Shown here: one piece after another, positions 5,813-43,479 of the stretch | Position numbering within the stretch: position 1 is the stretch's first letter | How the letters are laid out: the number at the start of each line of letters is the position of its first letter | Assembly: GCA_021776615.1 (NCBI GenBank) | Contig: JAJFFO010000007.1 | Location: 124,001 to 188,000 of the forward strand | Direction of reading: 5' to 3' | Length of the DNA stretch: 64,000 bases | Source of the DNA: Robiginitomaculum sp. | GTDB lineage: Bacteria; Pseudomonadota; Alphaproteobacteria; Caulobacterales; Maricaulaceae | The notes under the pieces: generated by a model | The model's database searches: none | Told to the model about the DNA's origin: nothing | The model's input: only the letters and a program-made list of their open reading frames with translations | Made by a program: the position numbers and the translations under genes

Positions 5813-5816
5813 AATC

Positions 5817-12747: not shown

Positions 12748-12760
12748 CTCCATCTCCAAC

Positions 12761-13969
12761 TTAAAAGGCCAACGTGTTTAATCGCAAAATAGGCAGAAAA
12801 ATCGCGGCGATAATGACCATTATAATTCCCGCAAGCAGGATAATTATCAACGGTTCCAACAGACTGAGTACGATCGACATCGTGCCTTCAAACTCGCCTT
12901 CCAGATAGTCCGCGGATTTGGCAAAAATAACGCCAACCTGACCGCTGGCCTCGCCGCCCGCAACCATTTGCACAAGGAGCGGCGGAAATACGGCCGAGGT
13001 TTTCAATGCAGCGCTCATCGCCCCGCCCTCGCGCACTTTTGTCGCGGCGGTGGTGACGGCGTCCTGCATTATCAGGTTTCCCAAGGTGTAGCGCGCAATT
13101 TCCAGCGCGGTCAGCGTTGGCGTGCCGCTGTCTATCAGACCCGCCATAGTACGGGCAAAGCGAGCGGCATTGAGGTTGCGGATTGTTGCCCCGAGAAGCG
13201 GCAATTGCAAAACACGGCGATCAACACGGCGCCGCAAGCCCGGACGCTTTAATAAACGATTGGCCAAAAACCCGAGCGCGACGAGGAATGCCATAGCAAC
13301 AATACCCCATTTTTTGAGCCCGTTCGAAAACCCGATGGTCCATTGGGTCAGCAAAGGCAATTCCTGGCCAAAACTGTCAAACTGCGCGACGACTTTGGGC
13401 ACCACAAAAACCATCAACACCACGACAACGGCAATAGCGACAACACTGAGCACCATTGGATAGGCAGTGGCACCCAGTATTTTGCGTCTGATTTTCTGCG
13501 CTGCCTCCAAATCATTGGCCAGCCGTTCAAGAACACTGGCCAAATTTCCGGAAGTTTCGCCCGATGCCACCATGGCCGTATATAATGGCGAAAAGGTTTT
13601 AGGGTGCGCGCGCAGGGCATCCGAAAGGCGCGCGCCTTCCAAAACCTGCGCCCGCACATCAAGCAAGACATCGCGTATCGGTGATTTGTTAAATTGCAGA
13701 GCCGCCATTTTAAGCGCTTCCTCAACCGGTGTGGCGGCCCCTATTAAAAAGGCGATTTGCCGGGTCGTCTGGGTGATATCTTTATGGTTGACGCGGCGCG
13801 CAAGCGCCGGGCGGCGCTGTTGCTTGTCCGCCCGGGCGGGATCGAGGTCGATCGGCGACAAGGAACGGCTACGCAAAATATCGCGCGCTTCACGAATACT
13901 GGTCGCCATGACGGTGCCGCGCTGGCGTTTGCCATTCTTATCCAGCGCCGCATAATCAAACGCGTCCAT
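12761..13969 (-). CDS. gspF: Type II secretion inner-membrane platform protein GspF
   Basis: About 402 residues with two T2SSF domains (roughly 70-190 and 270-395) and three membrane segments. I chose the ATG at 13969, which shares its A with the gspE TGA and has GGAGG 7 nt upstream; an in-frame ATG at 13999 lies inside gspE. Motifs include TRQIAFLIGAATPVEEAL and the second-domain copy ARTMAGLIDSGTPTLTALEI. Confidence 0.92.
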   Translation of the reverse strand: MDAFDYAALDKNGKRQRGTVMATSIREARDILRSRSLSPIDLDPARADKQQRRPALARRVNHKDITQTTRQIAFLIGAATPVEEALKMAALQFNKSPIRDVLLDVRAQVLEGARLSDALRAHPKTFSPLYTAMVASGETSGNLASVLERLANDLEAAQKIRRKILGATAYPMVLSVVAIAVVVVLMVFVVPKVVAQFDSFGQELPLLTQWTIGFSNGLKKWGIVAMAFLVALGFLANRLLKRPGLRRRVDRRVLQLPLLGATIRNLNAARFARTMAGLIDSGTPTLTALEIARYTLGNLIMQDAVTTAATKVREGGAMSAALKTSAVFPPLLVQMVAGGEASGQVGVIFAKSADYLEGEFEGTMSIVLSLLEPLIIILLAGIIMVIIAAIFLPILRLNTLAF

Positions 13970-15468: not shown

Positions 15469-17354
15469 TGGTTTCCAAGTACGCCGTCCAGTTTGGAAGC
15501 TTCCCGACCGGATTGTTGCATATCCTCATCACGCATTTGCTGAATACGGTTGGCGGTAAGCGGGCGGGCGTCTTCTGCGTTGCGGATAATGGTCGGGCGC
15601 AAAAACACCATTAAATTGGTGCGCACCCGCGATTTGTCCTTGCTCTTAAAAAGAGTGCCGACAATCGGCACATCGCCAAGCAACGGCACTTTGCTTATAT
15701 CAATTTGTTCGTCGTCTTGAATAAGGCCACCCAAGACAATGACCTCGCCATCATTGGCTAAAACTGTAGTTTTAATCTGGCGCTTATTGGTGACAAAATC
15801 ATTGGAGATTGCCGTTATCGCCCCGGCAATGCTGGAGACTTCTTGTTGGATGGATAAGCGTATCACATCGCCTTCGCTTATCTGCGGCAAGACATCAAGT
15901 TTAATGCCAACCTCCTTGCGCTCGAAAGTGCGAAACGGATTGACATTATCCGAGCCCAGCGACTCGCCGGTTGTGATGGGAATTTCCTGTCCAACCAAAA
16001 ATGTCGCCGCGACATTGTCCAAAGTGGTAACGAACGGCGTGGAAAGTACGTTCGAGTCCTTATCGGTTTCGACCGCGTTCAAAATGGCGCTAAACAAACC
16101 ATCACTGCCGCGCGAAGAAAACCCAGCCGTACCACCATCAAGGCCCAATAGAGAGTTAATCGCCGCCTGTTCAAGCGAGTCCTGGGAAGATTGCGAAAGC
16201 CCCAGCCCACCCCCGGCCAAAGCCCCAGTAAGGGCAAGAAGATTGGGGGCAGAACGCGAAAAATTTGTCGATATAAAGGGAATGCTGCCACCATCGGTAC
16301 CCGCCACGGCAAATTGCACGCCCAGTTCTAGTGCGGCGGTGTTAGATATTTCGACGATAATCGCTTCAACCAACACTTGCGGGCGACGCACATCAAGACT
16401 GTGAATGACGGACTCCAACGCACTTTGCGCTTCAGCACTGGCACTGATTATTATCACATTAGAGCCGGACTCATGCGCGACAGATGGCGTCGGTTGTCCC
16501 TCGCGGACATAAGCGGGCAACAGGGATTTTAAAATCTCGACAAGCTCGGCACCGCTGGCATAGCGCAAGGGAATGATGCTCACCGGGCCGCGTTTGCTAA
16601 TACCCCCGGCATCCAGTGCCGCAATTATTGGGCTAATTTTGGCGATGTCACGCGCGTCACCTTGCAAGATGAGGGTGTTGCTGCCGGGTATGGCGACGAC
16701 GTTGATTTTAGCCCGCTGGCCTTGCAGTTCGCGCACCGCGCGCTCCGCATCAATTGCCGAAAGGTTGGCCAATTGTATGGTTTCAATCACCTCTTCATCG
16801 GTATCCATGGCCGCAATAATAGCCCGTGCTTTGCGCAGGTTTTCTGGATAGTCGGTGAGAACCAAAATACGGCCACCGGGATTGGCCGTCAGCTGGCCCT
16901 GATTATGCAGAACCGGTTTGATCAGCTTCGCCGCTTCGGCCGCATCCACATAATTGAGCTTCATTATAATGGTTGAAAACTCACCGCTTATGCCGCCACC
17001 TCTAGTGAAAGGGGCATCTTGGGCAGCGCCCTGAATGAGGGAGATGCGGTACTCCCCGGAGGCGGTCGGAACGGCAGTATAACCATGAACGCGCAGCACA
17101 TCTTTGAACACGCTAAATATTTCGTCCGGGCTAAGCGCACTTTGTGATGATATCGTAACCTTACCTTGAACCCGCGGATCAACAATGAAGGTTTTATTAG
17201 TGGCGATTGACACATCACCAATAAAAGCACGGATGTCAGCGTCCTGCATGGTGATCACCTGTGCGCTGTCTTCAGACGTTTGGGCCATGGCCATGCTGAT
17301 CGTCAGGCAGGCCGCCAGAACGCCTCTTATGATACTAAATGCGAACACTTTCAT
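15465..17354 (-). CDS. gspD: Type II secretion outer-membrane secretin GspD
   Basis: 629 residues with a Sec signal peptide (cleavage near ISMAMAQT). An N0 domain (ITMQDADIRAFIGDVSIATN), three N1-N3 repeats and the C-terminal secretin domain follow, ending VPLLGDVPIVGTLFKSK and RTNLMVFLRPTII. The N3-to-barrel segment holds a Gly-rich insertion (ALAGGGLGLSQSSQDS). Overlaps gspE and gspC by 4 nt. No separate pilotin is recognised, although the lipoprotein ending the operon is a candidate. Confidence 0.94.
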   Translation of the reverse strand: MKVFAFSIIRGVLAACLTISMAMAQTSEDSAQVITMQDADIRAFIGDVSIATNKTFIVDPRVQGKVTISSQSALSPDEIFSVFKDVLRVHGYTAVPTASGEYRISLIQGAAQDAPFTRGGGISGEFSTIIMKLNYVDAAEAAKLIKPVLHNQGQLTANPGGRILVLTDYPENLRKARAIIAAMDTDEEVIETIQLANLSAIDAERAVRELQGQRAKINVVAIPGSNTLILQGDARDIAKISPIIAALDAGGISKRGPVSIIPLRYASGAELVEILKSLLPAYVREGQPTPSVAHESGSNVIIISASAEAQSALESVIHSLDVRRPQVLVEAIIVEISNTAALELGVQFAVAGTDGGSIPFISTNFSRSAPNLLALTGALAGGGLGLSQSSQDSLEQAAINSLLGLDGGTAGFSSRGSDGLFSAILNAVETDKDSNVLSTPFVTTLDNVAATFLVGQEIPITTGESLGSDNVNPFRTFERKEVGIKLDVLPQISEGDVIRLSIQQEVSSIAGAITAISNDFVTNKRQIKTTVLANDGEVIVLGGLIQDDEQIDISKVPLLGDVPIVGTLFKSKDKSRVRTNLMVFLRPTIIRNAEDARPLTANRIQQMRDEDMQQSGREASKLDGVLGNQ

Positions 17355-18543: not shown

Positions 18544-18618
18544 GTTTTTCAGTGTGTTGTTGTTTTGGTGTTTGGTTGCGGGGGTAGGATTTGAACCTAC
18601 GACCTTCAGGTTATGAGC
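18544..18618. repeat. Left attachment repeat (attL) with displaced tRNA-fMet 3' half
   Basis: Matches 43374-43448 over 75 bp with a single difference (G at 18554, A at 43384). It covers the tRNA-fMet 3' half, from the anticodon stem through the encoded CCA, plus about 30 bp of downstream sequence. After 18618 the sequences diverge, so crossover lies within or at the edge of this segment, probably near the anticodon loop. Confidence 0.9.
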
Positions 18619-18941: not shown

Positions 18942-19193
18942 ATGCTAAAGAGCAAACAAATTAAAGCGGCTAGAGCGCTTTTGGGGTGGTCGCAGCAAAA
19001 ACTTGCAGATTCTTCCGGCGTATCTATAGCGTCAATTCGGCGAATTGAATGCCAAATGAACTACCCAAAAGCACACACGGATACATTAGTGAAAATTGAA
19101 AATGGCTTTTTTCATGCCGGGATAACATTCACTAATGATGCCTCCGGCGAGGGAGTAGCTATAAAACGCGAGAACAGTAAGGGGATAACATGA
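18942..19193 (+). CDS. XRE-family regulator of the methyltransferase operon
   Basis: 83 residues. The helix-turn-helix spans about residues 5-58 (IKAARALLGWSQQKLADSSG, VSIASIRRIE). There is little else beyond a short C-terminal tail. Its stop overlaps the methyltransferase start (ATGA), so the two are translationally coupled. Position and size recall controller proteins of restriction-modification loci, but the HTH is of the general XRE type. The dyads upstream are likely its binding sites. Confidence 0.85.
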   Translation: MLKSKQIKAARALLGWSQQKLADSSGVSIASIRRIECQMNYPKAHTDTLVKIENGFFHAGITFTNDASGEGVAIKRENSKGIT

Positions 19194-20356
19194 ACGTAAT
19201 AATCCCTTCTCATTCTTTCATTCCAGAAAAAAAGAAAAAGCTCACAAGGCTTAATTGTGTTGACTTGTTCGCTGGCGCTGGCGGGTTTTCACTTGCCGCT
19301 ATTCAAGCTGGGTTTGAAATTAGAATGGCAGTAGAGTTCCATAGTCATGCTTGCGATACCTATCGGGCCAATATTCGTAACGGATCAAATAAACCTATCA
19401 CCCTATACGATGAAGACATTCATGGCTTGGACCCAAAGAAGCTGGCCTCCAAACATTTCGGTAATGACAATGTTTGTGATTTGCTTTTAGGCGGGCCGCC
19501 CTGCCAAGGATTTTCAACCCATAGAATTAACGACGCTGGCATTAACGATCCTCGCAACCAATTAATTCACAAGTACTTTGATTTCGTGGACGCGCTCCAG
19601 CCACGTATTTTTTTGATGGAAAACGTGCCCGGAATGCTCTGGCCTCGCCACCAGGCCTACCTAGATGAGTTTTATAAAACAGCTGGCGCAGCTGGCTACG
19701 ATGTTCATTCTCCATCTATTTTGGACGCTCGTGACTATGGCGTGCCTCAACGCCGTAAAAGAGTATTCGTCCTTGGAGTAAAAAAGGGGCTTGGGCACAC
19801 GATGCCATGGCCGCCCGCCCCTACGCATGGCAATAAAAACACTCGTCTGATCACTCCAAATTTAAAACCATGGCTAAGCTGTCAGCACGTTTTTGACCCG
19901 GCACCCATCGGCGATTCAAATGACATACACATGAACCACAATCATGAACTGGTTCAGGCCTTCCAGAAAACTCCCGCTAATGGCGGTAGCCGGCGAGATT
20001 CAGGCAGAACACTTAAATGTCATGAAAACCATGATGGCCACAAGGACGTGTATGGCCGTATCAACTCATTTGAGCCCGCCCCCACAATGACAACGGCTTG
20101 TATCAATCCTTCGAAGGGTCGTTTCGTGCACCCAACCGAGCATCATGGCATTACGCTTAGGCAAGCAGCACGCATCCAGACCTTCCCGGATAGCTTTGTG
20201 TTTAAAGGCGGACTAACGGCTTCTGGACAGCAAATTGGTAATGCCGTTCCAATAGAATTAGGAAAAATTCTCACACAACATTTATCACGTCATCTTAATA
20301 AATTTAGCAAAGACAGTAGTGTTTCAGGGAACCAAAGAGTTATAGTGGACGTATGA
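19190..20356 (+). CDS. DNA (cytosine-5) methyltransferase
   Basis: 388 residues with the full C5-methyltransferase motif order. Motif I is DLFAGAGGFSLAAIQAG (25-41), motif IV GGPPCQGFS with catalytic Cys105, motif VI MENVPG (near 147), motif VIII VPQRRKRVFVLG, and motif X GQQIGNAVPIELGKI near residue 346. The region between VIII and IX (about 210-300) is the target-recognition part; the target cannot be read from it. It overlaps the regulator upstream and the large ATPase downstream by 4 nt each. No restriction endonuclease gene is adjacent. Confidence 0.93.
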   Translation: MNVIIPSHSFIPEKKKKLTRLNCVDLFAGAGGFSLAAIQAGFEIRMAVEFHSHACDTYRANIRNGSNKPITLYDEDIHGLDPKKLASKHFGNDNVCDLLLGGPPCQGFSTHRINDAGINDPRNQLIHKYFDFVDALQPRIFLMENVPGMLWPRHQAYLDEFYKTAGAAGYDVHSPSILDARDYGVPQRRKRVFVLGVKKGLGHTMPWPPAPTHGNKNTRLITPNLKPWLSCQHVFDPAPIGDSNDIHMNHNHELVQAFQKTPANGGSRRDSGRTLKCHENHDGHKDVYGRINSFEPAPTMTTACINPSKGRFVHPTEHHGITLRQAARIQTFPDSFVFKGGLTASGQQIGNAVPIELGKILTQHLSRHLNKFSKDSSVSGNQRVIVDV

Positions 20357-23300
20357 TCGAAACTTTACCATTCCAAACTCGTGCGCGTACGATTGATCAT
20401 TTGGGTCGCGAGCAAATCGCAGATTGCCCTACAGCAATTTCAGAGCTTTGGAAAAACGCTTATGATGCGTATGCGAAGAAAGTTGAACTACATGTATTTG
20501 ATGGTGAGGTTCCCGTCGCCGCTATCGTAGATGACGGCCATGGCATGAACCGCGAAGAATTTGTGGAAAAGTGGTTGGTGGTTGGCACTGAATCAAAAGC
20601 AACCAACAATCGCACAAACAAAGAAGATCGCATGGGCCTGCCAGAAAGAGTCCGCCAAGGCCAAAAGGGCATTGGCCGACTATCATGCGCCAATATCGCC
20701 CCCCTTCTTCTCTTAGTATCCAAACGAAAGAATGACAAATTTGTAGCTTCTCTTCTTGATTGGCGGTTATTCGAAAACCCTTACCTCATACTCTCAGACA
20801 TCAAAATTCCAGTTGTAGAATTTGATAAATGCCATGATATTATTGGCCTAATACCTGAATTGTTTGACCAGCTTCTAGTGAACTTGTGGGGTGAGAAGCC
20901 TTCTAAGGGAGATGGGGATTTACAAAAGGCGGCCAAGGATGAACATAGGGCGCGGGTTGGGGCTGCTTGGGCATCATATGATGAATATATGAAGCAAGGG
21001 CGCATGGCCGACAACGACCTCACCGATGAAGAAAAAGCGGCACCCTTGCCGTCAGCAGAAATTGAATCAACTTTAGTGTCAACGCTGTTTGAAGAGCGTC
21101 ACTTTTCTGTCTGGCCTGTGTGGGATGAAACCAGTGACTGCGGCACCATCTTGATGATGGCAAATCTAAACTTTGACCTTCTAGCACAGCTAAATGTTAC
21201 CATTGACGACACCGCAGTCAAAGAAACCAAGGCTAAATTTTTTGAGACGTTATCATCTTTTGTCGACCCTTGCTGGGCACAGAGCCGTCTATCTAGCTTT
21301 TCTGAAGGAGTTCCCATTCAATATGGGGCCTACAAATGGAACGGCAACAAAAAAGATATAATTTTGGGAACAACAAACAATTTTACGATTACAGATGTAG
21401 AGGAAATGGAACACGTTGTTGAGGGTAGAATCAACCACGAAGGCACTTTCCAGGGACGAATTAAGGCCTTTGGTAAATGGCACGATGACGTTGCAATCCC
21501 GCCCCCCAGCGATCTCATAATTCCGCATGGCCCTTCAACAAAACTAGGACCAATTGATGTTTATTTAACAGCTGTTGAATTTCAGCAAAAAAATACAACC
21601 CATGAAAAAGGTACGTACGCGCATTACAAAGAGTTAGCTCAACTTTACTCGGGCTTGATGATTCACCGGGATGGCCTTCGCGTTCTCCCATTCGGCCGCA
21701 CTGATGTTGATTTCTTTGACATTGAAAAACGCCGCTCGCTAAGTGCTGGTCGTGAATTCTGGAACGCGCGACAAATGTTTGGCCGCCTTGGGGTATCGAG
21801 AAAGTTTAACCCTAACTTAACCGACAAAGCTGGGCGTGAAGGGCTGCTAGACAACCGAGCCGCCAAAACTTTTAAGGCAATCGGAATAAACCTTTTAAAG
21901 ACAGTTGCGCGTGTATATTTTGGTTCTGCATCAGACATTCGGAAAAAAATACTGCCCGAATTACAGGAGACATATAAGGAAAAAAAGGCCGAAGATGATC
22001 GGGTTAAACTTAGGACAAAAAGGCGAAAACAATTTCGCAATAACCTAAAGCACTTTGCTCCAGAGATCGCGGCACTTCGCGAACGAGCAATTAAATCGAT
22101 CAGCAATTTCGACGTGTCGGACGAGAACACTATAGACCAGGCACAAAAAATTCTTGATGAAATTAACAACGATTATAAAAAGTTTGTGCTGGGCGATGTG
22201 CCCAAAAACCTGAGTGACAGTTATCAACAGCAGTACGATGAATTTTCGGAAGATAAAAAATCCATTCATGCATTGGTTAGAGAAACACAAACCTCGCTGA
22301 ACAAAGCATTACAACTGGCTTCAGAGAAATCCCCAGCGGAACATGCGGCCAAAAAAATCAAAAGCCAAAAAGCAATTCTAGAACATAGCAGCCGGCAGTA
22401 TCGCGACCAAATTGGCGCATTGCAGAAAAGTGAATTTGAGCGTATTGGCAAACTCATTTTAGAACGTAAAGAGCTTTTTGAAGAACGTATCAAACCCATA
22501 GTGGTAAAGCTTGAGAGCGAAGATATCGAGCTTTATGAAGCGCTAAGTCTTTTCGAGGAAATTCGCACGAGTATTGAAGTTGAAAACGCGGACCTATTCG
22601 AGCCCTATATTCGAGCCCTCGAATGCATGGAAGAGAGTATCGATCTTGAAGTCTTGGCAACATTTGGGATGGAACAGGTATCGGACCTCAGCGCCGAAAT
22701 TAGCCGTTTAAACTCTTTAGCGCAACTTGGCATTGCGATTGAAATTATCGGCCATGAATTACAATCGTTTGATGACCTTATCGGTGCTGGACTTCGTGAG
22801 TTGCCCGATAAAATAAAAAATACCGATCCTTATGTGAGCATACAATTGGGGTATGAGGGCCTGACAAATCAACTTCGCTTCTTGTCGCCGTTAAAGCTAG
22901 CTGGAACCAAAAAAGAATGTTGGGTCACTGGCGAAGAGCTGTACGAATATGTAAAGAAATTCTTTGGTCAATCATTTGTAAAAAATGACATAAGCTTTGA
23001 CGCTACTGAAGCATTTAAAAAATTCAGCGTATTTGACCAACCCTCCCGCTTGTATCCCGTATTTATTAATCTTGTGAATAACAGTCGGTATTGGTTAGCT
23101 CACAAAAAGTCCAAAGAGCGGAACATACTTCTGGATATAAAAGATAGTCAGGTCATAATTTCTGACAATGGCCCTGGCGTCGATAAATTAGATATCGATA
23201 ATCTATTTACCCTCTTTTTTACCAAAAAGCTAAAAGGCGGTCGAGGAGTAGGTCTGTATCTTTCCCGTGCCAATCTCACAGCTGGCGGCCATCGTATTGC

Positions 23301-23379
23301 ATACGTCAAGGACAACGAACAATGCCCAATGCAAGGGGCCAATTTTGCAATAACTTTTAAAGGCGGCAAATATGTCTGA
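20353..23379 (+). CDS. Dual GHKL protein: MORC-like ATPase plus histidine-kinase-like module
   Basis: 1008 residues. The N-terminus is a GHKL ATPase of MORC/paraMORC type: N-box ELWKNAYDAYA (E31, N35, D38), G1 DDGHGM (60-65), WLVVGTESKATNN with the MORC-like Ser-Lys (74-86), and G2 GQKGIGRLS (103-111). A long charged, coiled-coil-prone middle follows (540-780). Near 790-815 comes a DHp-like helix GIAIEIIGHELQSF with His801 in the place of a phosphorylatable histidine. The C-terminus (895-1005) is a second GHKL fold like a histidine-kinase ATPase: NNS (909-911), DNGPG (938-942), LFFTKK and GGRGVGLYLSR (962-972). It has no membrane segment. Prokaryotic paraMORC ATPases are known from restriction-modification neighbourhoods. 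That it signals to the adjacent receiver protein is inference. It overlaps both neighbours (4 and 8 nt). Confidence 0.88.
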   Translation: MIETLPFQTRARTIDHLGREQIADCPTAISELWKNAYDAYAKKVELHVFDGEVPVAAIVDDGHGMNREEFVEKWLVVGTESKATNNRTNKEDRMGLPERVRQGQKGIGRLSCANIAPLLLLVSKRKNDKFVASLLDWRLFENPYLILSDIKIPVVEFDKCHDIIGLIPELFDQLLVNLWGEKPSKGDGDLQKAAKDEHRARVGAAWASYDEYMKQGRMADNDLTDEEKAAPLPSAEIESTLVSTLFEERHFSVWPVWDETSDCGTILMMANLNFDLLAQLNVTIDDTAVKETKAKFFETLSSFVDPCWAQSRLSSFSEGVPIQYGAYKWNGNKKDIILGTTNNFTITDVEEMEHVVEGRINHEGTFQGRIKAFGKWHDDVAIPPPSDLIIPHGPSTKLGPIDVYLTAVEFQQKNTTHEKGTYAHYKELAQLYSGLMIHRDGLRVLPFGRTDVDFFDIEKRRSLSAGREFWNARQMFGRLGVSRKFNPNLTDKAGREGLLDNRAAKTFKAIGINLLKTVARVYFGSASDIRKKILPELQETYKEKKAEDDRVKLRTKRRKQFRNNLKHFAPEIAALRERAIKSISNFDVSDENTIDQAQKILDEINNDYKKFVLGDVPKNLSDSYQQQYDEFSEDKKSIHALVRETQTSLNKALQLASEKSPAEHAAKKIKSQKAILEHSSRQYRDQIGALQKSEFERIGKLILERKELFEERIKPIVVKLESEDIELYEALSLFEEIRTSIEVENADLFEPYIRALECMEESIDLEVLATFGMEQVSDLSAEISRLNSLAQLGIAIEIIGHELQSFDDLIGAGLRELPDKIKNTDPYVSIQLGYEGLTNQLRFLSPLKLAGTKKECWVTGEELYEYVKKFFGQSFVKNDISFDATEAFKKFSVFDQPSRLYPVFINLVNNSRYWLAHKKSKERNILLDIKDSQVIISDNGPGVDKLDIDNLFTLFFTKKLKGGRGVGLYLSRANLTAGGHRIAYVKDNEQCPMQGANFAITFKGGKYV

Positions 23380-25156
23380 TGAGAGAATTCAGACGTTGAG
23401 AGACATCGTGGAAGATGTGTTTATTTCTCCAGTCCGGTCAGTACTTTTAGTGGATGATGAGTACCCTACATTAGACCTGATGCTAGATGGCTATATTGAT
23501 AGCCAAGATGTTTGGAGTAAAACCAAAGGCACTGCAAAGGAGAGTGCGAGAAGAGTCGCTAAAATATTAAATTTTTGTCGATCTGATCGGCGCAACTGGC
23601 TAGTTGACGTTCATGATGGTCAAAATGTTGAGTTTGGAGATGAGGCTCAATCCGTTTCTCATCTTCATCAAAGCGATCTACTATTTCTTGATTTACACTT
23701 GGAAGGTGACAGCGAAAGTACAGAAAAATGCATAAATATTCTTAAGCATTTGGCGAACAGTGACCATTTTAACCTGGTAGTTGTTGTGACAAAAACAGAA
23801 ATCAGTGAAGCAATTGAGCAAATTTTACCCGAATTTGTGCCTCAGAGGTTTAATGCTGATATCGATATTGCTAAAAAGGACCAGACTGAAAGCGCCCTAG
23901 AGGATTGGTCCGATAAGGACGACAGCATTATTAAAAATCTCAATAATTGCATCTCCCTTACAGCCTTCGTAAATATATCCAAAGTGCCAATCAACAAAAT
24001 TGGAGCTGAGGAGCCAAACGTTGAACCATACATTGGCGATTTTTTAACCCTTTGGGATGCTAAACCAAACGACATTGAACTGGAGGTTGACGACCTGCTA
24101 ATTTGGGTGTTGCAGAAAGCTGAGTGTCAATTGAACATTAAGGGATCCGCTGATCATCACCTAGAGCATTCATCAATGGGCGCAGCTCAACCTTGGTTGT
24201 GTGACAGGAATGTGTTCCTAACCGTACACAAAAAAAGCGAATCTGACGAAGAGGGTCAGAACATTTTGGACTCTCTAATTGCCGCAATGGTTGACTGGCA
24301 GCCAACAGCAAATCGACTGATACTAGCTAAACTCAGATCAGAGGTGGAGAGTCGCGGAATTTCGGTAGGCGAAGAAATATTCACTGAACGTGAGATGCAG
24401 GCTGATTGGTTGCATAAAATGGTTGCCGCAAAACCGGAAGAACAAAAATCCGCCGTAGATATAATCGTATCCAGGTACTGCGAAGCGCTAATTTCGTATA
24501 TTTCTTATCCCATCCGCGACACTGTTATTTCCTCTTTAGCCCTTGAGACAGGGGCCGAAGTGCTTCAGCGCTCTAAAGCTGCATTTGGCGTGGATTTATC
24601 CTCAAGGGAAGGAAAACAGCTGGCCGCACTTCAACACAACATTGTTGTCTCAAACTGCCGAATAAGTGGATGGCACCTGCAGCCTGGGCATATATTCTTG
24701 CGAGATGATGAGTTTTGGATGATTTTGACACCCTCGTGCGATCTAGTGCCGTTAAAATCTCGAAAACGCTCTGAACACCTTTGTGGATTGATGCCATTTA
24801 AAGCCGTAAAGCTACGAAAGATAGAGAACCCAACTACCGGATTAAGAAAAGCCAACCAAAACCTAACAACCTTTATTTATCATGACGGAAAGCCGATCCT
24901 TCTTCATTTTCTTACAGGTAATTCGTCCAACTCAGAGGTCCATTGGAATGAGTTTTTTGCAAAAAACCACGGAAAACTAACGCCACCCGATTACACTTCC
25001 GAAGTGGCCACCGTTACACATGATGATGATGATAAATTTCATACCACATGGTTTAATGTACGAATCGTTGCTCAACTTCGTTACGAATATGCAATTAATT
25101 TATTGCAAGTCTTGGCAAGTCGGACATCAAGAGTAGGTTTGGATTTTGTGCAATAA
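23372..25156 (+). CDS. Receiver-domain protein partnered with the dual GHKL ATPase
   Basis: 594 residues. The N-terminal 150 form a CheY-like receiver: acidic pair in LLVDDE (D28, D29), phospho-acceptor Asp107 in LLFLDLHLEG, and the Thr-Lys switch at VVVVTK (T140, K141). The gap between the acidic pair and Asp107 is about 78 residues rather than about 40, so there is an insertion around 45-95. The remaining 440 residues match no family I recognise. They include WMILTPSCDLVPL near 450 and a C-terminal helix ending RVGLDFVQ. There is no helix-turn-helix or known nuclease motif. The start overlaps the ATPase gene by 8 nt, so both are made together. Output function unknown. Confidence 0.82.
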   Translation: MSDERIQTLRDIVEDVFISPVRSVLLVDDEYPTLDLMLDGYIDSQDVWSKTKGTAKESARRVAKILNFCRSDRRNWLVDVHDGQNVEFGDEAQSVSHLHQSDLLFLDLHLEGDSESTEKCINILKHLANSDHFNLVVVVTKTEISEAIEQILPEFVPQRFNADIDIAKKDQTESALEDWSDKDDSIIKNLNNCISLTAFVNISKVPINKIGAEEPNVEPYIGDFLTLWDAKPNDIELEVDDLLIWVLQKAECQLNIKGSADHHLEHSSMGAAQPWLCDRNVFLTVHKKSESDEEGQNILDSLIAAMVDWQPTANRLILAKLRSEVESRGISVGEEIFTEREMQADWLHKMVAAKPEEQKSAVDIIVSRYCEALISYISYPIRDTVISSLALETGAEVLQRSKAAFGVDLSSREGKQLAALQHNIVVSNCRISGWHLQPGHIFLRDDEFWMILTPSCDLVPLKSRKRSEHLCGLMPFKAVKLRKIENPTTGLRKANQNLTTFIYHDGKPILLHFLTGNSSNSEVHWNEFFAKNHGKLTPPDYTSEVATVTHDDDDKFHTTWFNVRIVAQLRYEYAINLLQVLASRTSRVGLDFVQ

Positions 25157-25242: not shown

Positions 25243-26475
25243 TTAATGTTCAAATGCTGACGTCATTCGGTTAATTTCGCCGACCGCTATACCAAGTCCT
25301 GCGGCAACATTTCGCCATTCGGCTACAGCGGTTTCAACCTGCGAAACAATGCCACGTGCCTCACTAGTTGCAAGTTCAAAATATTTTGCAACACTGAACG
25401 CTAATTCGACCGAGGCGGTGGCTTCATCAAGATCAATATTAGTCGAAAGAACGCGTGGCTTAATATCCACCGGCACTGGGTTTAGATCATATGCAGGCGC
25501 TAATCGCCACCCATCTGGTCCCTCATAAAGAAAACCATGATTGCGCAAATGATCATCTGTATTGGAAATCATGACATTAAAAACGATACGTCGCCACAAG
25601 GCATGCATATCTTCCTTTGGCGATGCCCCATACTGACGCAACGCATCTACAAATTCGAGATAACTGCGCGTCTCGTTATCACTTGCACCAAGCATACTCA
25701 TGGCTGAGAGAAAAGGTATGCGAGTATCATCAAGACGGTCAAATCTCTGTAAGAGAAGAACTGGCTTCCCAGCAATATTCTCTAATCGCCATTTCGGCAC
25801 ACAAAGCCCGGCATTGGCGGCCAGAGTTAAAGCTACAGCCTCCCACCTCATTATATCGATTTCATCGTCCCTATGCGGGAACTTGGCAATCGCCAACGCG
25901 CCATTCCGATCACGGACCGAAGCTTTTGGGCGAGCACCGCCTAATGAGGAGCCAGGAGCAAGTAATAATCGTAAATCTTCATCGCTATCTGAATCGTTAG
26001 CGACATGATCCGCAGCCGATAACAATCTTGGAAGTTCTAACAATGGGGGGATATGACCTGCATTGTGCTCTGTAAGAAAGGGGCCGCCCTCCTGCACGGA
26101 AAAGCGTAACGCTCCCTGACGTGCTTCATCACCAACTCTGAGCAAGTAATCCATTTCCATTAAACTGCGAGGCGCTTGACCTTCGTTTTCCGCTCGGCGG
26201 CGTTCAGCACGGCGCATAAGAACCCTTCCCCAACGGTCTGGCGCTGAATCTCCAATCGCTCCAAATAGCGGTTTATGCCCCGCTGTATGAAAAGGCCCCG
26301 GCCCCAACTTTAAAGCAGGCTCCAATGAAAAATGATCCTTATAGGCCAGCCATGACGGATCATATTCAAAGGTAGCACTTTGACGATTATGGCGCGTACG
26401 TGCCCAGAGACGCCCGACAAGATGTTGGACCCCCTTAATATCGACGCTAACGAAAACCTCTGATTCTACGCTCAT
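25243..26475 (-). CDS. hipA: HipA-family Ser/Thr kinase toxin
   Basis: 410 residues. N-terminal HipA N1-type domain (VGRLWARTRHNRQSATFEYD, then PDRWGRVLMRR), the Gly-rich ATP loop GSSLGGARPKASV (near 185), the catalytic loop NVMISNTDDHLRNHGFL (near 305) and the metal-binding LAPAYDLNP. By family it is a toxin kinase that blocks translation by phosphorylating an aminoacyl-tRNA synthetase. The HipA start overlaps the hipB stop (TAATG). Convergent with the receiver-protein gene. Confidence 0.92.
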   Translation of the reverse strand: MSVESEVFVSVDIKGVQHLVGRLWARTRHNRQSATFEYDPSWLAYKDHFSLEPALKLGPGPFHTAGHKPLFGAIGDSAPDRWGRVLMRRAERRRAENEGQAPRSLMEMDYLLRVGDEARQGALRFSVQEGGPFLTEHNAGHIPPLLELPRLLSAADHVANDSDSDEDLRLLLAPGSSLGGARPKASVRDRNGALAIAKFPHRDDEIDIMRWEAVALTLAANAGLCVPKWRLENIAGKPVLLLQRFDRLDDTRIPFLSAMSMLGASDNETRSYLEFVDALRQYGASPKEDMHALWRRIVFNVMISNTDDHLRNHGFLYEGPDGWRLAPAYDLNPVPVDIKPRVLSTNIDLDEATASVELAFSVAKYFELATSEARGIVSQVETAVAEWRNVAAGLGIAVGEINRMTSAFEH

Positions 26476-26807
26476 TACTCTTTTCTTTTCGTCGAGACGG
26501 ATTTGCGAATTCGTTTGGGCAAACGCTCTTCTTCCAATTCAAGGCCAATGGTATCGCTTTTTATGTCGGCAAGGTCACTAAGGCGGTGGGCCATCCCCAA
26601 AACAAACAACACCGTTGCATAGGTGCCCATGGCCACACCAGGATCGCCGTTTTCTAGTTTATTCAGGGTGACCCGACTTGTTGATGCGCGCTCAGCTAAA
26701 ATTTTTGTCGAAATACGTCGCCGCAATCTTGCATCCCGAATATCCTGACCGAATTTACGCAAAGCTTTCCGAACCGGAATTGGCATCACAGGTTTTGATT
26801 TTTTCAT
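26475..26807 (-). CDS. hipB: HipB-like XRE antitoxin
   Basis: 110 residues with an XRE helix-turn-helix at about 22-75 (DIRDARLRRRISTKILAERA, STSRVTLNKLENGDPG). First gene of the hipBA pair. It should bind HipA and repress its own promoter. The C-terminus is Lys/Arg rich. Confidence 0.88.
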   Translation of the reverse strand: MKKSKPVMPIPVRKALRKFGQDIRDARLRRRISTKILAERASTSRVTLNKLENGDPGVAMGTYATVLFVLGMAHRLSDLADIKSDTIGLELEEERLPKRIRKSVSTKRKE

Positions 26808-26898: not shown

Positions 26899-28437
26899 TT
26901 ATCGCTCAAACCCCCGGTCCTTATTGCGTTCTCGTTCCCGCTCAATCTCCACCTGCCGCTCTTGTTCCCGCTGGCGTTGGCGCAAGGCTGCCATCGCCTT
27001 ATCCGCGAATTTTCGGACCGTGTCGGACCTCATGGTTTGGCGGGCTTCGGTGATGGCTTTTTTGGTGGGCCATGGCAGGGATTTCCAGGTTTTGTTGTTC
27101 ATGCCGGTGGCGGCTTTTTGGATTTGGCGTAGGGCTATTAGGCGTTCGGCGGTGGGGTGGTTTTCTATGGTTTCTTTTTGTTGGGTTAGGGCCTGGTGGC
27201 GTTGTCTGGCTTTGGTGATGTTTAGGGTGGATTGGGCTTGTTTGTTGCGGATGTATTCGGCTTTGGCGGCTTTTTCGGCGAGGATTGGGATGGTGGTTAG
27301 GGCCTCTTTGCGGGTGCGGCTGTGCCATAGGTTTCCGATGGCGTAGCCTTTGAGGCGGCCGTAATAGGTGGGGTGTTGTTTCATTAGGCGTGCGGCGTTG
27401 TTGGGGTTGCTGGCCTTGTGGTGGGCGCGATTTATGTAGGCTATTTGGGCTTTTTCGGGGTTGCGGTAGACGCTGGCTAAGCCGCCTTTTACGGCCAGGT
27501 CCAGCTGTTTCAGGTTTTCTTGGCGTTTGTCGTGGGCGAATATTTGTTTGCGCAAAGTGGTGATTTTTCTGCGCAGGTTGTTGAGCGCGGTATTTTGTTG
27601 GTCAACCATGCGCAGGCTTTTGAGGGCGGATTTTAGGTCGGGCTTCGTCTGGCTGGCCAGGGCTTTGGCTAATTCCGGGCGGTCTATTATTAGGGATATT
27701 TCCAGGTATTGGTTTTTGAGTTGTTCGCGCTGGGCATTTCTTTTTTGTCTGTTTTCATTGGCGATGGCGGCATCTGCTTGTTCGCCTTCGCGGGTCATGG
27801 CAGTGACTTCCGGGCCCTCGTGTAACGTGGGTTCCTGTTTCAGACCCTGATCTTCCAGCGTACGGTGATCGACGCGTTCGGGTCTGCCTGCACGTTCCAG
27901 GGCTTTATTGACATGATCCTGCCATGCGATACGCCAGTGTTCCAACTGGGTGCGGGAGTTCCATTCGCGGGCTTTGCGGGTGAAACCGTCAGGGTCTATT
28001 TCGCGCATTGTCAGCATGGCATGGGCGTGGTGGTTGCGTTCGTCGCCTTCGCCGTCAGGCAGGTGCAGGACAAAATCCGCCACCATTCCTTTTGAGACGC
28101 ATTCCTCATTCAGGAAGCCTCGCACGAGATCCAGACGTTGTTCGTCATTAATCTCGTGCGGTAGCGCCATGGTCAGCTCTCGCGCTGTCTGGGCGTTGGC
28201 TCGCGTCTCCTTTGCCTCGACCTTATTCCAGAGTTTCTCTCGGTCGAGGGTCCAGTCAGGGGCATTTTCGGGGGTTAGAATCTCCGCATGGAGAACGCCG
28301 CCTTTTCGGGAATAATCGTGGGTCTGGCCGGTAGTTTCATTGGCCAGGCTTTCGGCGGCACGGTACGCCGCCGACGCAACGGCGTTGCTGCCATTGGCAC
28401 GCTTCACGATTGATACCCGAAACGAATATATTGCCAT
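26899..28437 (-). CDS. mobA: MobA/MobL (MobQ) family relaxase
   Basis: 512 residues. The relaxase domain occupies about 1-210. Tyr25, in the conserved AAYRAAE context, is in the same place as the nicking tyrosine of RSF1010 MobA. The metal-binding histidine motif is NHHAHAML (near 135). The C-terminal 300 residues are a charged, helical, Arg/Lys/Gln-rich tail without a primase motif. It would cut one strand at the oriT about 110 bp upstream and pilot it into a recipient. Confidence 0.92.
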   Translation of the reverse strand: MAIYSFRVSIVKRANGSNAVASAAYRAAESLANETTGQTHDYSRKGGVLHAEILTPENAPDWTLDREKLWNKVEAKETRANAQTARELTMALPHEINDEQRLDLVRGFLNEECVSKGMVADFVLHLPDGEGDERNHHAHAMLTMREIDPDGFTRKAREWNSRTQLEHWRIAWQDHVNKALERAGRPERVDHRTLEDQGLKQEPTLHEGPEVTAMTREGEQADAAIANENRQKRNAQREQLKNQYLEISLIIDRPELAKALASQTKPDLKSALKSLRMVDQQNTALNNLRRKITTLRKQIFAHDKRQENLKQLDLAVKGGLASVYRNPEKAQIAYINRAHHKASNPNNAARLMKQHPTYYGRLKGYAIGNLWHSRTRKEALTTIPILAEKAAKAEYIRNKQAQSTLNITKARQRHQALTQQKETIENHPTAERLIALRQIQKAATGMNNKTWKSLPWPTKKAITEARQTMRSDTVRKFADKAMAALRQRQREQERQVEIERERERNKDRGFER

Positions 28438-29394: not shown

Positions 29395-32052
29395 TTAATC
29401 AAAATCATGTTTGAGAGTGATGATGTCCTGGCGCATGGCACCGGCACGCTGGATCAGAGCGTAGGCGTGCCAGCGACCCATGCCGATAACATCGGCGGGG
29501 GTGAGAGCAGCGGTCATCTGGTTGCCTTCGGTGCGGTATTTATGTTCAAGGTCTTCGGAGCGCCAATGGGCGGCCTGCAAGGCCTGAAGGCGGGCTGTGT
29601 TGGTGGCGTCCTTATCATAGCCAAGTTTGAACCAGCTTGTGATCGGCACGAAGCGTAAGTCCGGGGAATAGGTTTGTTTGCTTTGTGCTGTTCCGATTTG
29701 CTGCCTGTTTATAGAGATCAACATTCGGGCGGCACCCAATAGCAATCGCCAGCCGCTTGTCATGGGGATGGCATCTTCAGTGTCAATGGGGTCGTAGGGG
29801 TTCCAGCCGTCTATCAGATAACGGTGATCGATACTTTCTTTCTGGTTGTTATCGAATACGCGGTTGCGTTCGAACTCTCCGGCGCACCAGCAGGCGTAAT
29901 CGACTGTCGCGCGGTCTTCGGAACGCAGGAATATTTTTGATCGGGCCTGTTGCAGGAAGTTTTTGGCGGCGGCCTCGCCCATGGATTGTTCCAGCGCGGC
30001 AATGGTTTGTGTTGCAAAAACACCGACCAGGCCCGTGCTGCGGGCCACATTCCAGAAGCTGGCATCACTAAGACCGGAGGTTGCATCAACGGTTACAATC
30101 TCCTGCACCTCGTCCATCATCACCACGCAAGGGGAGCTTTGCGGGTTTTCACCCTTGGCCTTTAACCGTGCCTCGCGCAGACGGGCTTCGCGATAGAGGC
30201 AGGTTTTAAGGAGGATATTGACAAGCGTGGCTGGTAATCCGTCCTCGACATTGGATAAGGCGCTTAGAACGATTTTACCGTTCAGGGCATCTGAAATTGA
30301 GATCGTATTTTTACTCGGACCAGAGATAAAACGTTTGCGAAGTTCCGGCGCGCCGGAAAACCCATCCATCAACTGGCTGACGCTGGCGATAATACCGGTG
30401 CGGGTTTTACCCGCCAGTTCCTCCCATTGGCCAGCCATATAGGAACGGCTGGCGCTAAGCGCTGAAGCGGTCAGGATGGTGTAGGCCGGTTTATCCGGTG
30501 ATTTTTGGTCAACAAAGCCTTCTAAACTGGCGTTAATCGCGTCCAGAGCGGTTTTAAGGACAGCTTCATCAATAAGGGCCTGGTAGGCCCACCACAGACT
30601 GTAAGGGGCAGCGTTCTCGCTGCTCTCGGCCTTATAGCGTTTTCCTTCTTCGGTTTGCGCAAAGCCGTGACCAATAGTCAGAGCGTGGCGCATGGCGGTT
30701 GCGGCCATATCGGGCCAGAAACTGTCAGAATTGTTGCCGCCGCCCAGTTGGGTGAGCACCGAACGCAAAACACCGGCAATTTGCGAGGGCGTTAGCGAGG
30801 AGAGCGCATCAACGCCATGTTGCCCTTTGGCGGTGCCAATAACGCGAATATCGGCTTTGCGGCCTGCGGCCTCGGCAATGGTTTTTGCGTCCTTCCACAA
30901 AACGCCTTTGGCATCACAGACATAAAGGCCCATAAATTCCACGCCAAGAAATTGCTTCAATAAGGGTTTGAGGATGGCCGTTGTTTTACCCTCACCCGTG
31001 CCGCCCAACACCATTAAATGCTGGAATAATGAGTCCCCATCCAGATTCATGGATACATCATCAAGCGGCGCATTTAAATCGCCACGCAACCGTAATGTGC
31101 CTGTTGATTTGCCAACCTCGAATAAAGGCGAGTCTTCAAGGTAGTCCAAACTTAGTTCAACCTGCCGGGCATATGTATTATTGGCTATCTTGCGTGCCTC
31201 TGCCCTGTAGGGCCAGCGCACATCAGCATCCTTGGAGACGATTTCATAAGGCTCTGCCTTCTGCCGCCGCCAGCGCTCAATGACCACCAGCATGGTCAGA
31301 ATTCCGGCTCCCGCACCGAAAATCACCCAAAGCAGCAGGTACAATGCGCCTTTCCACAGAAAATCCAGAAAAGTGAGCACGGCAAGGCCTGCACCTTGCC
31401 CGAATAAGGTCCATCTGCTTTCGCGAACAACGGAGCCATCCGGCCAGCGTTCCAGAATGGCCAGTTCTGCGTTCATAGCCTCGGATAGTGGCGCAAAAAC
31501 CGCCCCCATAGAGATCACCAAAAACAACGTAACCGGAACCAGAACAAGCAGGATCGCCGCTACAAGCCCGGCTCTGGCGGCCTCCTTGACAAGATCGGTG
31601 CTGATATGGCGATCTGCCAGCCATGTCAGATCAAACCCGCCCGGAAGACGGCCATCCTCCCATAAAGGTCGGCGAATATCTTCCGGCACCTCTTCATATA
31701 ACCAGGGATAGTCATCTGTAGCCCAAATACTCTTCGCAAACGCCTCGCGCTCGCCCTGAACAAGCTTGTCCTTCTTGCGACGAGCTAGCCAGTTCACACT
31801 CCCTTCAACCCGTGCCGGTACCGCATCCAATAATGAAACCCGGCTCACCACCCACAATAAAGGCCGCCACAATGGGACCGCCAGCAGAGACAACAGCATC
31901 AAAATGGCCGCCGGAAACAGCGCCAAAAATCCAAGAACCAGCCGTTGAACAATCCCAATTTGAAGGATCAAAACTATGGCGATAAGCCCGGATAAAAGCG
32001 CAATCAGAACATTCGCCGACATCATAGAAGGAAATGCCAGCACCGCGCTCAT
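29395..32052 (-). CDS. VirD4/TraG-type conjugative coupling protein
   Basis: 885 residues. Several N-terminal membrane segments (about 7-65, 170-200, 225-255), then a P-loop ATPase with Walker A LGGTGEGKTT (near 350) and Walker B CVVMMDEVQEI (near 645), then a C-terminal all-alpha region. This is the type IV coupling protein that hands the relaxase-DNA complex to a secretion channel. It is longer than VirD4 (about 650), the extra length being N-terminal. It overlaps the upstream 219-residue gene by 4 nt. No channel genes accompany it. Confidence 0.85.
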   Translation of the reverse strand: MSAVLAFPSMMSANVLIALLSGLIAIVLILQIGIVQRLVLGFLALFPAAILMLLSLLAVPLWRPLLWVVSRVSLLDAVPARVEGSVNWLARRKKDKLVQGEREAFAKSIWATDDYPWLYEEVPEDIRRPLWEDGRLPGGFDLTWLADRHISTDLVKEAARAGLVAAILLVLVPVTLFLVISMGAVFAPLSEAMNAELAILERWPDGSVVRESRWTLFGQGAGLAVLTFLDFLWKGALYLLLWVIFGAGAGILTMLVVIERWRRQKAEPYEIVSKDADVRWPYRAEARKIANNTYARQVELSLDYLEDSPLFEVGKSTGTLRLRGDLNAPLDDVSMNLDGDSLFQHLMVLGGTGEGKTTAILKPLLKQFLGVEFMGLYVCDAKGVLWKDAKTIAEAAGRKADIRVIGTAKGQHGVDALSSLTPSQIAGVLRSVLTQLGGGNNSDSFWPDMAATAMRHALTIGHGFAQTEEGKRYKAESSENAAPYSLWWAYQALIDEAVLKTALDAINASLEGFVDQKSPDKPAYTILTASALSASRSYMAGQWEELAGKTRTGIIASVSQLMDGFSGAPELRKRFISGPSKNTISISDALNGKIVLSALSNVEDGLPATLVNILLKTCLYREARLREARLKAKGENPQSSPCVVMMDEVQEIVTVDATSGLSDASFWNVARSTGLVGVFATQTIAALEQSMGEAAAKNFLQQARSKIFLRSEDRATVDYACWCAGEFERNRVFDNNQKESIDHRYLIDGWNPYDPIDTEDAIPMTSGWRLLLGAARMLISINRQQIGTAQSKQTYSPDLRFVPITSWFKLGYDKDATNTARLQALQAAHWRSEDLEHKYRTEGNQMTAALTPADVIGMGRWHAYALIQRAGAMRQDIITLKHDFD

Positions 32053-41975: not shown

Positions 41976-43253
41976 TCAGGCCTGTGGCCTTTGTTCGGAA
42001 TCGTCTTCTTTGGCGATTTGGGCTTTGCGGTTCGAGCGCTCGCGCCGGACATTGATTAGCGAGGTGTCGATCATGTCTTTGAGGTGGGCCGCATAGTGTT
42101 TTTCGATCATCTCGACACTGGTGCGGCAGTTCTTGGCTACCTGATAGATGTCTGCGCCTTCGAGAAGGCGGAAGCAGATATAGCTGTGACGCAGGCTGTA
42201 GGCCGTGCGGGGTTTGTCGCTGCGGTCAAACTTTAGGTTATTTTCGATCATGATGCCGTTGAACATTTTTTTGAATTCATTGGGGAAGAGTTTGTCGGTT
42301 GGCTTTGGCAGGGCCGATATGCTTTCACCCTCTTCGTTTTTCGTGGGCCGTTCGCGATCACGCAAACGCTCAAAAGGCCTGACGGCACCCGGCATGCTTT
42401 TGCAGTAACCAACACCACGCTTGCCGCGCACTTCGATTTCCAGGATATTTTGGCCGGAATAATCGTCTTCAACAATCTCAATGTCACGGAATTCCACATG
42501 CTTCACCTCATCCGGGCGCAGGCCAGTATTGGCCATAAAGAGCACGAAGTCATGCAGCTGTTCAGCGTGCCATTTAAAGCGTTTGCTTTTTGGATTGGCG
42601 GCATTTTTTCGGGTCGCCTCATAAAGCTGTTTGTATTCCTTGGGCGTAAACCACGGTCTATGTTCAACCTTGCTCTGTCGTCTGTAAGGATCGGACAGGT
42701 CGGGTACCTGCTCTATCCATTTATGCCGTCTGGCGGCTTTCAGGACCATGCTTAAAGTTACGACTTCATTGTGGAGGGTGTTTCGGGCCGGTGGTTTCCA
42801 GGGACGGACCTCGCCCTTCTCACCGATCTTGTTTTCTTCATCCCAGTTTTCCGGCTTGGTCATCCGGTGCACACGATATTCCTGCGCTGTACCAGACGTG
42901 AACTCGGATACAATCTTGTCGCCGAAATAAGGCAAGAGATGCAGGCGCAAGCGGTCTTTATGACCCTGCACCCATTTGGGACTTCGGTGACCACGCGTGG
43001 TCGCTTCATACTCGGTTTCGAAGATTTTTGCTGCTTGAGTGAGGGTTTTTCCTGTTTTCAGTTCGCCAAAATGATCCTTGGCGCACAGTTCCATATACCA
43101 ATCGGTGGCAATATCTCTGGCTTTACCAAGGCTTTTCTCTTTGGTGCTACGCCGCCATTCCCTTCCTTTCAGGAAGGTATAGTAGTGCCAACTGCCGCCT
43201 TCAGAGCGGCGGTAGAGAATCACTTTGTCGCCTAATATTCGATGCCTTTCCAT
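41976..43253 (-). CDS. int: Tyrosine-family integrase of the element
   Basis: 425 residues. N-terminal SAM-like core-binding domain (about 50-180) and a catalytic domain with Arg in NTGLRPDEV (near 250), YSLRHSYI (near 352; the usual first His of HxxR is Tyr, as in a common phage-integrase subgroup), and the nucleophile Tyr in EKHYAAHL (near 390). Transcribed away from the adjacent tRNA. It lies 120 bp from the right attachment repeat, the standard arrangement of an island integrase with its target tRNA. Confidence 0.93.
   Translation of the reverse strand: MERHRILGDKVILYRRSEGGSWHYYTFLKGREWRRSTKEKSLGKARDIATDWYMELCAKDHFGELKTGKTLTQAAKIFETEYEATTRGHRSPKWVQGHKDRLRLHLLPYFGDKIVSEFTSGTAQEYRVHRMTKPENWDEENKIGEKGEVRPWKPPARNTLHNEVVTLSMVLKAARRHKWIEQVPDLSDPYRRQSKVEHRPWFTPKEYKQLYEATRKNAANPKSKRFKWHAEQLHDFVLFMANTGLRPDEVKHVEFRDIEIVEDDYSGQNILEIEVRGKRGVGYCKSMPGAVRPFERLRDRERPTKNEEGESISALPKPTDKLFPNEFKKMFNGIMIENNLKFDRSDKPRTAYSLRHSYICFRLLEGADIYQVAKNCRTSVEMIEKHYAAHLKDMIDTSLINVRRERSNRKAQIAKEDDSEQRPQA

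Positions 43254-43373: not shown

Positions 43374-43479
<106 letters not shown>

Follow-up and report, generated by a model that had tools for sequence, protein, structure and literature searches.

In this study, we identified an operon in Robiginitomaculum sp. that is a mobile-element-borne member of the HEF_HK/Response_reg_2 two-component-like family with a cytosine-5 (C5) DNA methyltransferase. The operon spans positions 18942-25156 of a 64,000-nucleotide (nt) stretch (positions 124,001 to 188,000 of contig JAJFFO010000007.1, assembly GCA_021776615.1), hereafter called the window. It comprises four open reading frames (ORFs) on the + strand with successive overlaps of 4, 4 and 8 nt. Its kinase, receiver and methyltransferase genes are linked far beyond chance in the genomes that we compared, where they form a near-obligate trio. 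The features of the operon are listed below in window coordinates (aa, amino acids; E, E value).

18942..19193, + strand: XRE-family helix-turn-helix (HTH) regulator, 83 aa, the first gene and not part of the conserved module (HTH_3, E 1e-7)
19190..20356, + strand: C5 cytosine DNA methyltransferase, 388 aa, catalytic motifs present (PF00145, E 3e-63; motif check)
20353..23379, + strand: MORC-like GHKL/S5 ATPase, coiled coil and histidine kinase core, 1008 aa (Pfam; predicted structure)
20353..21942, + strand: N-terminal GHKL and S5 module of the kinase, about aa 1-530 (residues invariant in 74/74 sequences)
22753..22755, + strand: codon of H801, the predicted phospho-acceptor His in the HEF_HK helix (invariant in 74/74)
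23372..25156, + strand: receiver protein (Response_reg_2), 594 aa, with a receiver at about aa 20-310, a helical middle and a beta-rich C-terminal module (PF19192; model)
23690..23692, + strand: codon of D107, the predicted phospho-acceptor Asp (invariant in 70/70)
24623..25153, + strand: C-terminal module of the receiver protein, aa 418-594, presumed output (conserved residues; no known family matched)

A first-pass annotation, made by a model from the DNA letters and their translations, had described four overlapping genes on one strand that encode a regulator, a complete C5 methyltransferase, a soluble 1008-residue protein with two GHKL modules, and a receiver protein. The ORF positions, the HTH_3 and PF00145 matches with the catalytic motifs, the Pfam domains and the hydropathy profiles agree with this description. 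No membrane segment was indicated in the four proteins by hydropathy alone (peak 19-residue value 1.29), with no trained predictor applied, and Pfam recognised no nuclease domain in any of them. The XRE gene was considered as a conserved part of the system and dropped: a profile of the window copy matched three ORFs in trio loci, namely the window copy itself and two others separated from a trio by about 2.8 and 6 kb, and found no homologue directly beside another trio, a search that a dissimilar XRE protein would escape.

The kinase contains HATPase_c_3 (residues 27-140, E 3e-17), HEF_HK (PF19191, residues 791-848, E 4e-6) and HATPase_c (residues 897-1002, E 3e-13). HEF_HK sits between the two HATPase models and scores 27.6 bits against a cut-off of 24.1; both HATPase matches are also above their cut-offs. 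We aligned the window protein with 73 of the 83 available kinase sequences, omitting those with doubtful or non-ATG starts and near-duplicates. The residues E31, N35, D60, K105, K492, H801, N906, N910, D938, G963, G965 and G967 are invariant in all 74; the alignment thus shows no variation in the predicted phospho-acceptor His or in the ATP-site residues of either module. In the structure model (pLDDT 84.8, pTM 0.66), residues 11-539, with a GHKL domain followed by S5 and intact motifs, match MORC3, SMCHD1 and MORC4. The N-terminal half superimposes on MORC3 (Z 17.1, rmsd 4.3, 331 residues) and SMCHD1 (Z 16.3, rmsd 5.2, 356 residues), and the C-terminal part on the histidine kinase HK853 (2c2a; Z 16.7, rmsd 5.4, 219 residues). 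Foldseek ranks the MORC2 ATPase in complex with DNA first for this model (E 1e-9). The kinase is thus predicted to be a MORC-like GHKL and S5 clamp joined by a coiled coil to a histidine kinase core, and the earlier domain reading (MORC-like GHKL, histidine kinase and receiver) holds at the level of Pfam and structure matches.

The receiver gene adjoins the kinase gene with an 8-nt overlap, and its product matches Response_reg_2 (PF19192) at residues 21-181 (E 2e-13; 51.5 bits, cut-off 27). In an alignment of the window protein with 69 of the 85 available sequences, subject to the same omissions as for the kinase, D28, D102, D107, K288, G439, C456 and R587 are invariant and D457 is conserved in 69 of 70. 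In the structure model (pLDDT 90.8, pTM 0.87), residues 20-310 adopt a receiver fold interrupted by insertions, which matches known receivers with Z of about 9 (EvgA: Z 9.1, rmsd 3.1, 118 residues). K288 follows directly after a predicted strand (281-287), suggesting that it is the conserved Lys of the receiver. Foldseek with this model gave no Protein Data Bank (PDB) match at E 0.001 or better and weak viral matches, among which a PemK-like one (E 0.23) was not used. A PDB sequence search with the alignment returned only chance-level matches to CbbX. No DNA-binding domain was found by Pfam at E 0.1 in the 70 members; an exonuclease family match in one of them (E 0.034) was taken as chance.

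The C-terminal module (residues 418-594), which is presumed to be the output of the receiver protein, is beta-rich in the model and carries the invariant Cys and near-invariant Asp (C456 and D457). An alignment of 37 sequences and the window was used to search for its relatives. The 38 members gave scattered chance-level matches to Pfam at E up to 10, with no nuclease family among them, no match to PDB sequences, and a single PADLOC match in one member (E 0.013). Its fold was hardly probed, as structural comparison was filled by receiver-domain matches, and no known family was found. A search for the module in 299 genomes yielded six places, none of them outside the genomes and proteins that Response_reg_2 had already detected.

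The occurrence of the trio was examined in relatives found by a kinase-alignment scan with one genome per species, which gave 116 relatives, of which 80 were kept as loci; the loci annotated with the trio profiles were also those from which the profiles had been built. The receiver gene adjoins the kinase gene in 79 of the 80, the exception being a 3.6-kb contig (L032). A C5 methyltransferase is located within 1 kb in 73 loci: upstream in 57, downstream in 9, and downstream on the other strand in 7. Among the seven loci lacking it, the contigs of L016 and L032 break off at the kinase, and that of L087 ends just after the receiver; the other four are considered below. The co-occurrence of methyltransferase and receiver genes with the large ATPase, which the first-pass annotation had proposed to test, is so far supported: most homologues of the ATPase have these partners. 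No nuclease domain has so far been recognised in either large protein.

Other samples gave a similar picture. The receiver family is present in 11 of 398 genomes of the phylum, including the window, and all ten others have the kinase and methyltransferase within 1 kb (two of them are probably the L027 and L030 loci). In the class sample, it is present in 4 of 289 genomes: the window, two with the trio, and one on a contig that starts inside the kinase. Three full-length plasmid homologues also carry the trio, as do all six contigs that the alignment scan found in the viral set; a viral-contig scan with a single sequence gave no match. An enterobacterial kinase query matched 214 of 5426 complete Escherichia coli genomes, 7 of them over at least 80% of the query, and the three E. 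coli loci examined (SE15, DEC5E and 400660) all hold the trio.

The window methyltransferase has the motifs PCQGFS, ENVPG, PQRRKR and GNAVP. It matches the PADLOC models DruM, DrmMII and MTase_II; apart from the methyltransferase, PADLOC detected no partner proteins of the corresponding systems (Druantia, DISARM and others) in the operon. In a set of 82 loci, which omits those without an adjacent methyltransferase or receiver, with a partial methyltransferase or with the kinase at a contig start, the distances of kinase and receiver correlate at 0.93, those of methyltransferase and kinase at 0.52, and those of methyltransferase and receiver at 0.51. Single-linkage clustering cut at 45% places the methyltransferases of 71 loci in one subfamily, which has a recognisable target-recognition segment. 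Eight belong to a type B with a different target-recognition segment and are always located after the receiver; three are outliers. By parsimony, the subfamily changes four times on the kinase tree (200 shuffles: mean 10.8, lowest 9), and one type-B group of four clusters with the type-A locus L018 with a support of 0.95. Thus, one type of methyltransferase can be exchanged for another, but a methyltransferase is retained. This supports modification as a needed partner, and speaks against the kinase being rigidly matched to a single methylation site.

We tentatively favour, with confidence somewhat short of even, a methylation-gated His-Asp relay used against foreign DNA. The methyltransferase would mark the cell's own DNA, and the MORC-like N-terminal ATPase of the dual-GHKL protein would clamp onto DNA and recognise unmarked (foreign) molecules. 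Closing of the clamp would signal via the coiled coil to the kinase core, and the core would phosphorylate H801. The phosphate would then move from H801 to D107 of the receiver protein, and phosphorylated D107 would release or activate the C-terminal Cys-Asp module as the putative effector. The biological role would most likely be defence against phages or plasmids. The methylation state as input and the phosphorelay as output, which the first-pass annotation had proposed, both fit the evidence. The data themselves show the gene order, the domains, the conserved residues, the co-occurrence and the mobile context, from which DNA sensing, the self mark, the direction of the relay, the effector and the defensive role are inferred. 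This reading is supported by the adjacency and co-divergence of kinase and receiver, the retention of the methyltransferase, the invariance of H801, the ATP sites, D107 and K288, the match to MORC proteins, the lack of a recognised DNA-binding domain in the receiver protein, and the mobile context described below.

Several observations weigh against it. Four loci (L019, L029, L051 and L081) retain an intact kinase and receiver with no methyltransferase within 1 kb, and a contig end is not the reason. The distances of methyltransferase and kinase correlate less well, which speaks against close matching of the sequence that is methylated to the one that is read. No effector chemistry was recognised in the C-terminal module, and the window receiver protein matches no PADLOC model; the kinase matches the generic restriction-enzyme model REase_II at residues 12-127 (E 2e-9) and AriA at E 0.19. 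No experiment on the function of the family was found in a literature search that left preprint servers, supplements and most subscription papers outside. Finally, nuclease genes are common, though not universal, neighbours. Within about 6 kb of the kinase, 35 of the 80 loci have a Vsr-like gene and 9 have an HNH_2 gene related to the one after the E. coli SE15 trio; at least one of the two is present in 40 loci and both in 4, and such a gene could encode the actual effector or a partner in repair.

Representative neighbours match PF03852 (Vsr, E 1e-21) and PF13391 (HNH_2, E 9e-9 and 1e-11). In two of the three E. coli loci, the trio is followed by a gene that is annotated as a restriction endonuclease and matches HNH_2. 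No Vsr match was found in the genome of the window, the assembly of which is 71% complete. The first-pass annotation had the relay acting instead of a direct endonuclease. This claim is uncertain in view of the Vsr and HNH_2 neighbours and of the hardly tested fold of the C-terminal module, although Pfam gave no nuclease domain in any of the four proteins.

These neighbours also bear on a regulatory explanation, in which the pair would be a two-component system tuning the expression or activity of linked restriction-modification (R-M) genes, and the receiver would act by protein contacts and not as an effector. The HNH_2 gene after the E. coli trios and the frequency of Vsr and HNH_2 genes speak for it, as does the over-representation of R-M genes near the pair in a 2021 survey, the accessible text of which speculates on such regulation (Bellieny-Rabelo et al., PMC8011034). 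We nevertheless consider it fairly unlikely. Half of the loci (40/80) have neither Vsr nor HNH_2 within about 6 kb, other nuclease types not having been searched for, and therefore often little but the methyltransferase would be left to regulate. Moreover, the receiver protein has no recognised DNA-binding domain, and the genes overlap and look co-transcribed with their supposed target.

A nuclease-type R-M system would place the cut within the operon itself: the dual-GHKL and receiver proteins would jointly form an endonuclease with an unrecognised catalytic site, for example in the Cys-Asp module, and phosphorylation would be only a switch. The invariant C456, R587 and G439 resemble an active site, and the closest curated NCBI model to the N-terminal GHKL domain is that of the BbrUII/HgiDII restriction enzymes (NF050001, E 1e-18), in the region where PADLOC also places its restriction-enzyme model. 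This match covers residues 12-132 only and is thus confined to the ATPase; at the whole-protein level it failed, with 67 bits against a cut-off of 550. The lack of a nuclease family in the Pfam and PDB searches of the module, the fold of which is hardly tested, also counts against an endonuclease, and we regard this explanation as unlikely.

The mobile context was defined by the following features of the window.

18555..18618, strand not assigned: attachment (att) repeat, a 64-bp exact direct repeat of the 3' half of tRNA-Met, the far att site (repeat comparison)
43385..43448, strand not assigned: matching att repeat, overlapping tRNA-Met (repeat comparison)
43403..43479, - strand: tRNA-Met(CAT), the integration target
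41976..43253, - strand: tyrosine integrase beside the tRNA (PF00589, E 9e-5, below the Pfam cut-off)
26899..28437, - strand: MobA/MobL relaxase of the element (PF03389, E 9e-70)
29395..32052, - strand: type IV coupling protein of the element (TraG-D_C, E 2e-8; T4SS-DNA_transf, E 8e-5)

The 64-bp repeats with the relaxase, coupling-protein and integrase genes between them therefore delimit an integrative element of 24.9 kb, inserted in tRNA-Met. Within its cargo, the operon is outermost and sits at the end opposite the tRNA-side integrase. Convergent with the operon is a HipA-like kinase toxin gene (window 25243-26807; PF07804, E 6e-48) with a small HTH gene. The element also contains a second phage-integrase-family gene (36639-37271; PF00589, E 8e-20) and a gene for a 718-aa protein with no Pfam match at E 0.001 (39380-41536); to its left, type II secretion genes with GspL-, GspE- and GspD-like matches occupy 8733-17354. 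The SE15 and DEC5E trios of E. coli are located in a tRNA-Leu island with an integrase (frameshifted in DEC5E), MobH relaxase, ArdC and Fic. The 400660 trio is among insertion sequences, with no such island genes in the stretch examined.

Carriage as cargo of integrative elements, with a HipBA-like toxin-antitoxin pair beside the operon, is also what suggests a selfish stabilisation module, in which loss of the methyltransferase would activate the relay and harm the cell, so that the mobile element is kept. Nothing here shows toxicity, and the four loci without a nearby methyltransferase keep an intact kinase and receiver; we judge such a role improbable.

Kinases of a second form were found among 27 further loci, comprising the three plasmid homologues, three loci from a HEF_HK search, and 21 from an N-terminal GHKL profile search that were picked by hand among the better matches and are not a random sample. 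Eleven of the 27 have a shorter gene product (708-842 aa) that contains both GHKL modules. In all eleven, the next gene on the same strand reads as receiver-like by eye, with an acidic pair and an Asp at beta-3 (in L012, only the Asp part). Pfam Response_reg matches, all below the cut-off, were obtained for three of these partners (L010, E 3e-5; L152, E 2e-6; L153, E 0.005), and Pfam found no receiver family in the other eight. A C5 methyltransferase is present within the fetched stretch in seven of the eleven loci, and an N4/N6- or Eco57I-type methyltransferase in L011, L147 and L149, so that nine have some DNA methyltransferase; none was found in the fetched stretches of L012 and L148. In the shorter receivers, only weak traces of the Cys-Asp module were seen. 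Profile-profile comparison of our receiver alignment with five shorter or divergent partners gave weak matches: L010 from Campylobacter (72%, covering 36 columns in the Cys-Asp segment), L148 (40%, covering 29 columns at the C-terminal end), L012 (17% over a receiver segment), L011 (2%) and L146 (0.3%).

Some of these loci are of individual interest. L010 (6001-10451), L152 (4103-8656) and L153 (4512-9005) have a short dual-GHKL kinase, a CheY-like receiver and a C5 methyltransferase, which is the same composition in another form. In L147 (1653-6416), L149 (3530-8418) and L011 (4600-10356), the dual-GHKL kinase and receiver-like gene are beside an Eco57I- or N4/N6-type methyltransferase; L149 also has a C5 gene nearby. 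The L011 gene at 8560-10356 is annotated 'cytochrome P450', has no Pfam match at E 0.1 and has a receiver-like start, so the annotation looks wrong. In L146, a GIY-YIG nuclease-like gene (5707-6303; PF22945, E 2e-9) is located just upstream of the dual-GHKL kinase, the receiver-like gene and the C5 methyltransferase.

No short dual-GHKL kinases were met in the accessible text of the 2021 description (PMC8011034), and the HEF_HK trio may be one branch of a larger set. A wider idea, which we put forward as doubtful, is that DNA-modification-gated phosphorelays are a whole set of bacterial immune systems. In such systems, a MORC-type clamp-histidine kinase would read unmodified DNA and, in place of a nuclease, trigger an effector linked to a receiver. 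The methyltransferase that supplies the self mark would be interchangeable (C5 or adenine-type), and besides the published HEF_HK branch the set would include the shorter kinases (708-842 aa), which have different receivers.

Should the relay indeed respond to methylation, it would amount to an immune system in which the recognition of self and non-self DNA becomes a His-Asp phosphate signal, and would link MORC ATPases, which are silencing factors in eukaryotes, to two-component signalling. The E. coli genomes with a homologue of at least 80% coverage (7/5426) make the question testable in a laboratory strain, and the invariant Cys-Asp module of the receiver is a concrete target for further work. 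The interest of the system lies in the near-obligate trio, in its possible place as a branch of a larger set, and in the fact that we found no test of a family described in silico.

Several known systems share parts of this composition. The MORC and paraMORC proteins of R-M operons (Iyer et al. 2008, PMC2292703) also combine GHKL and S5 domains in an operon with a DNA methyltransferase, whereas the window protein adds a C-terminal histidine kinase core and a receiver partner; the word 'receiver' is absent from the accessible part of that paper. The BbrUII/HgiDII enzymes (NF050001) likewise begin with a GHKL domain, and L141, their one clear member seen here, also has a neighbouring C5 methyltransferase, but beyond the matched ATPase residues the window protein is a kinase. 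Descent from BbrUII was not supported: the L141 methyltransferase is nearer to the tested type-B methyltransferases (33-38%) than to that of the window (29%). The GHKL-type Shedu protein VcSduA (paraMORC3; PMC12137116) is a phage-defence protein with a GHKL ATPase; unlike the window protein, it carries a PD-(D/E)xK nuclease, and 'receiver' and 'methyltransferase' do not occur in the accessible part of its description. PorX-type regulators with a PglZ output resemble the receiver protein in joining a receiver to a non-DNA-binding output, and PorX is among the receiver structure matches, but only the receiver aligned, and the window C-terminal module has no recognised family. In the legend of Fig. 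6 of PMC13092281, as far as that source was accessible, 'HATPase' and 'REC' are among the domains of predicted defence systems (panel F, eight according to the text), one of which could be this trio.

The closest relative is the HEF_HK/Response_reg_2 pair, from which both families were defined in silico in 2021 (PMC8011034). According to the accessible text, the two genes are linked in 91.6% of 644 regions, C5 methyltransferases are frequently upstream, Vsr genes are often directly downstream, and HNH_2 is the commonest endonuclease domain nearby. The first-pass annotation, which knew of no described system with this composition, was mistaken on this point. The window operon shares the receiver family, the neighbouring C5 methyltransferase and the HATPase_c_3, HEF_HK and HATPase_c arrangement, and the three-domain kinase (group 1) is the commonest architecture reported there (174/222). 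It differs in the XRE gene in front and in the lack of a Vsr match in its 71%-complete genome. To the description available in that text, the present study adds counts for the whole trio, structure models, and the conserved C-terminal module of the receiver protein, which is not named there.

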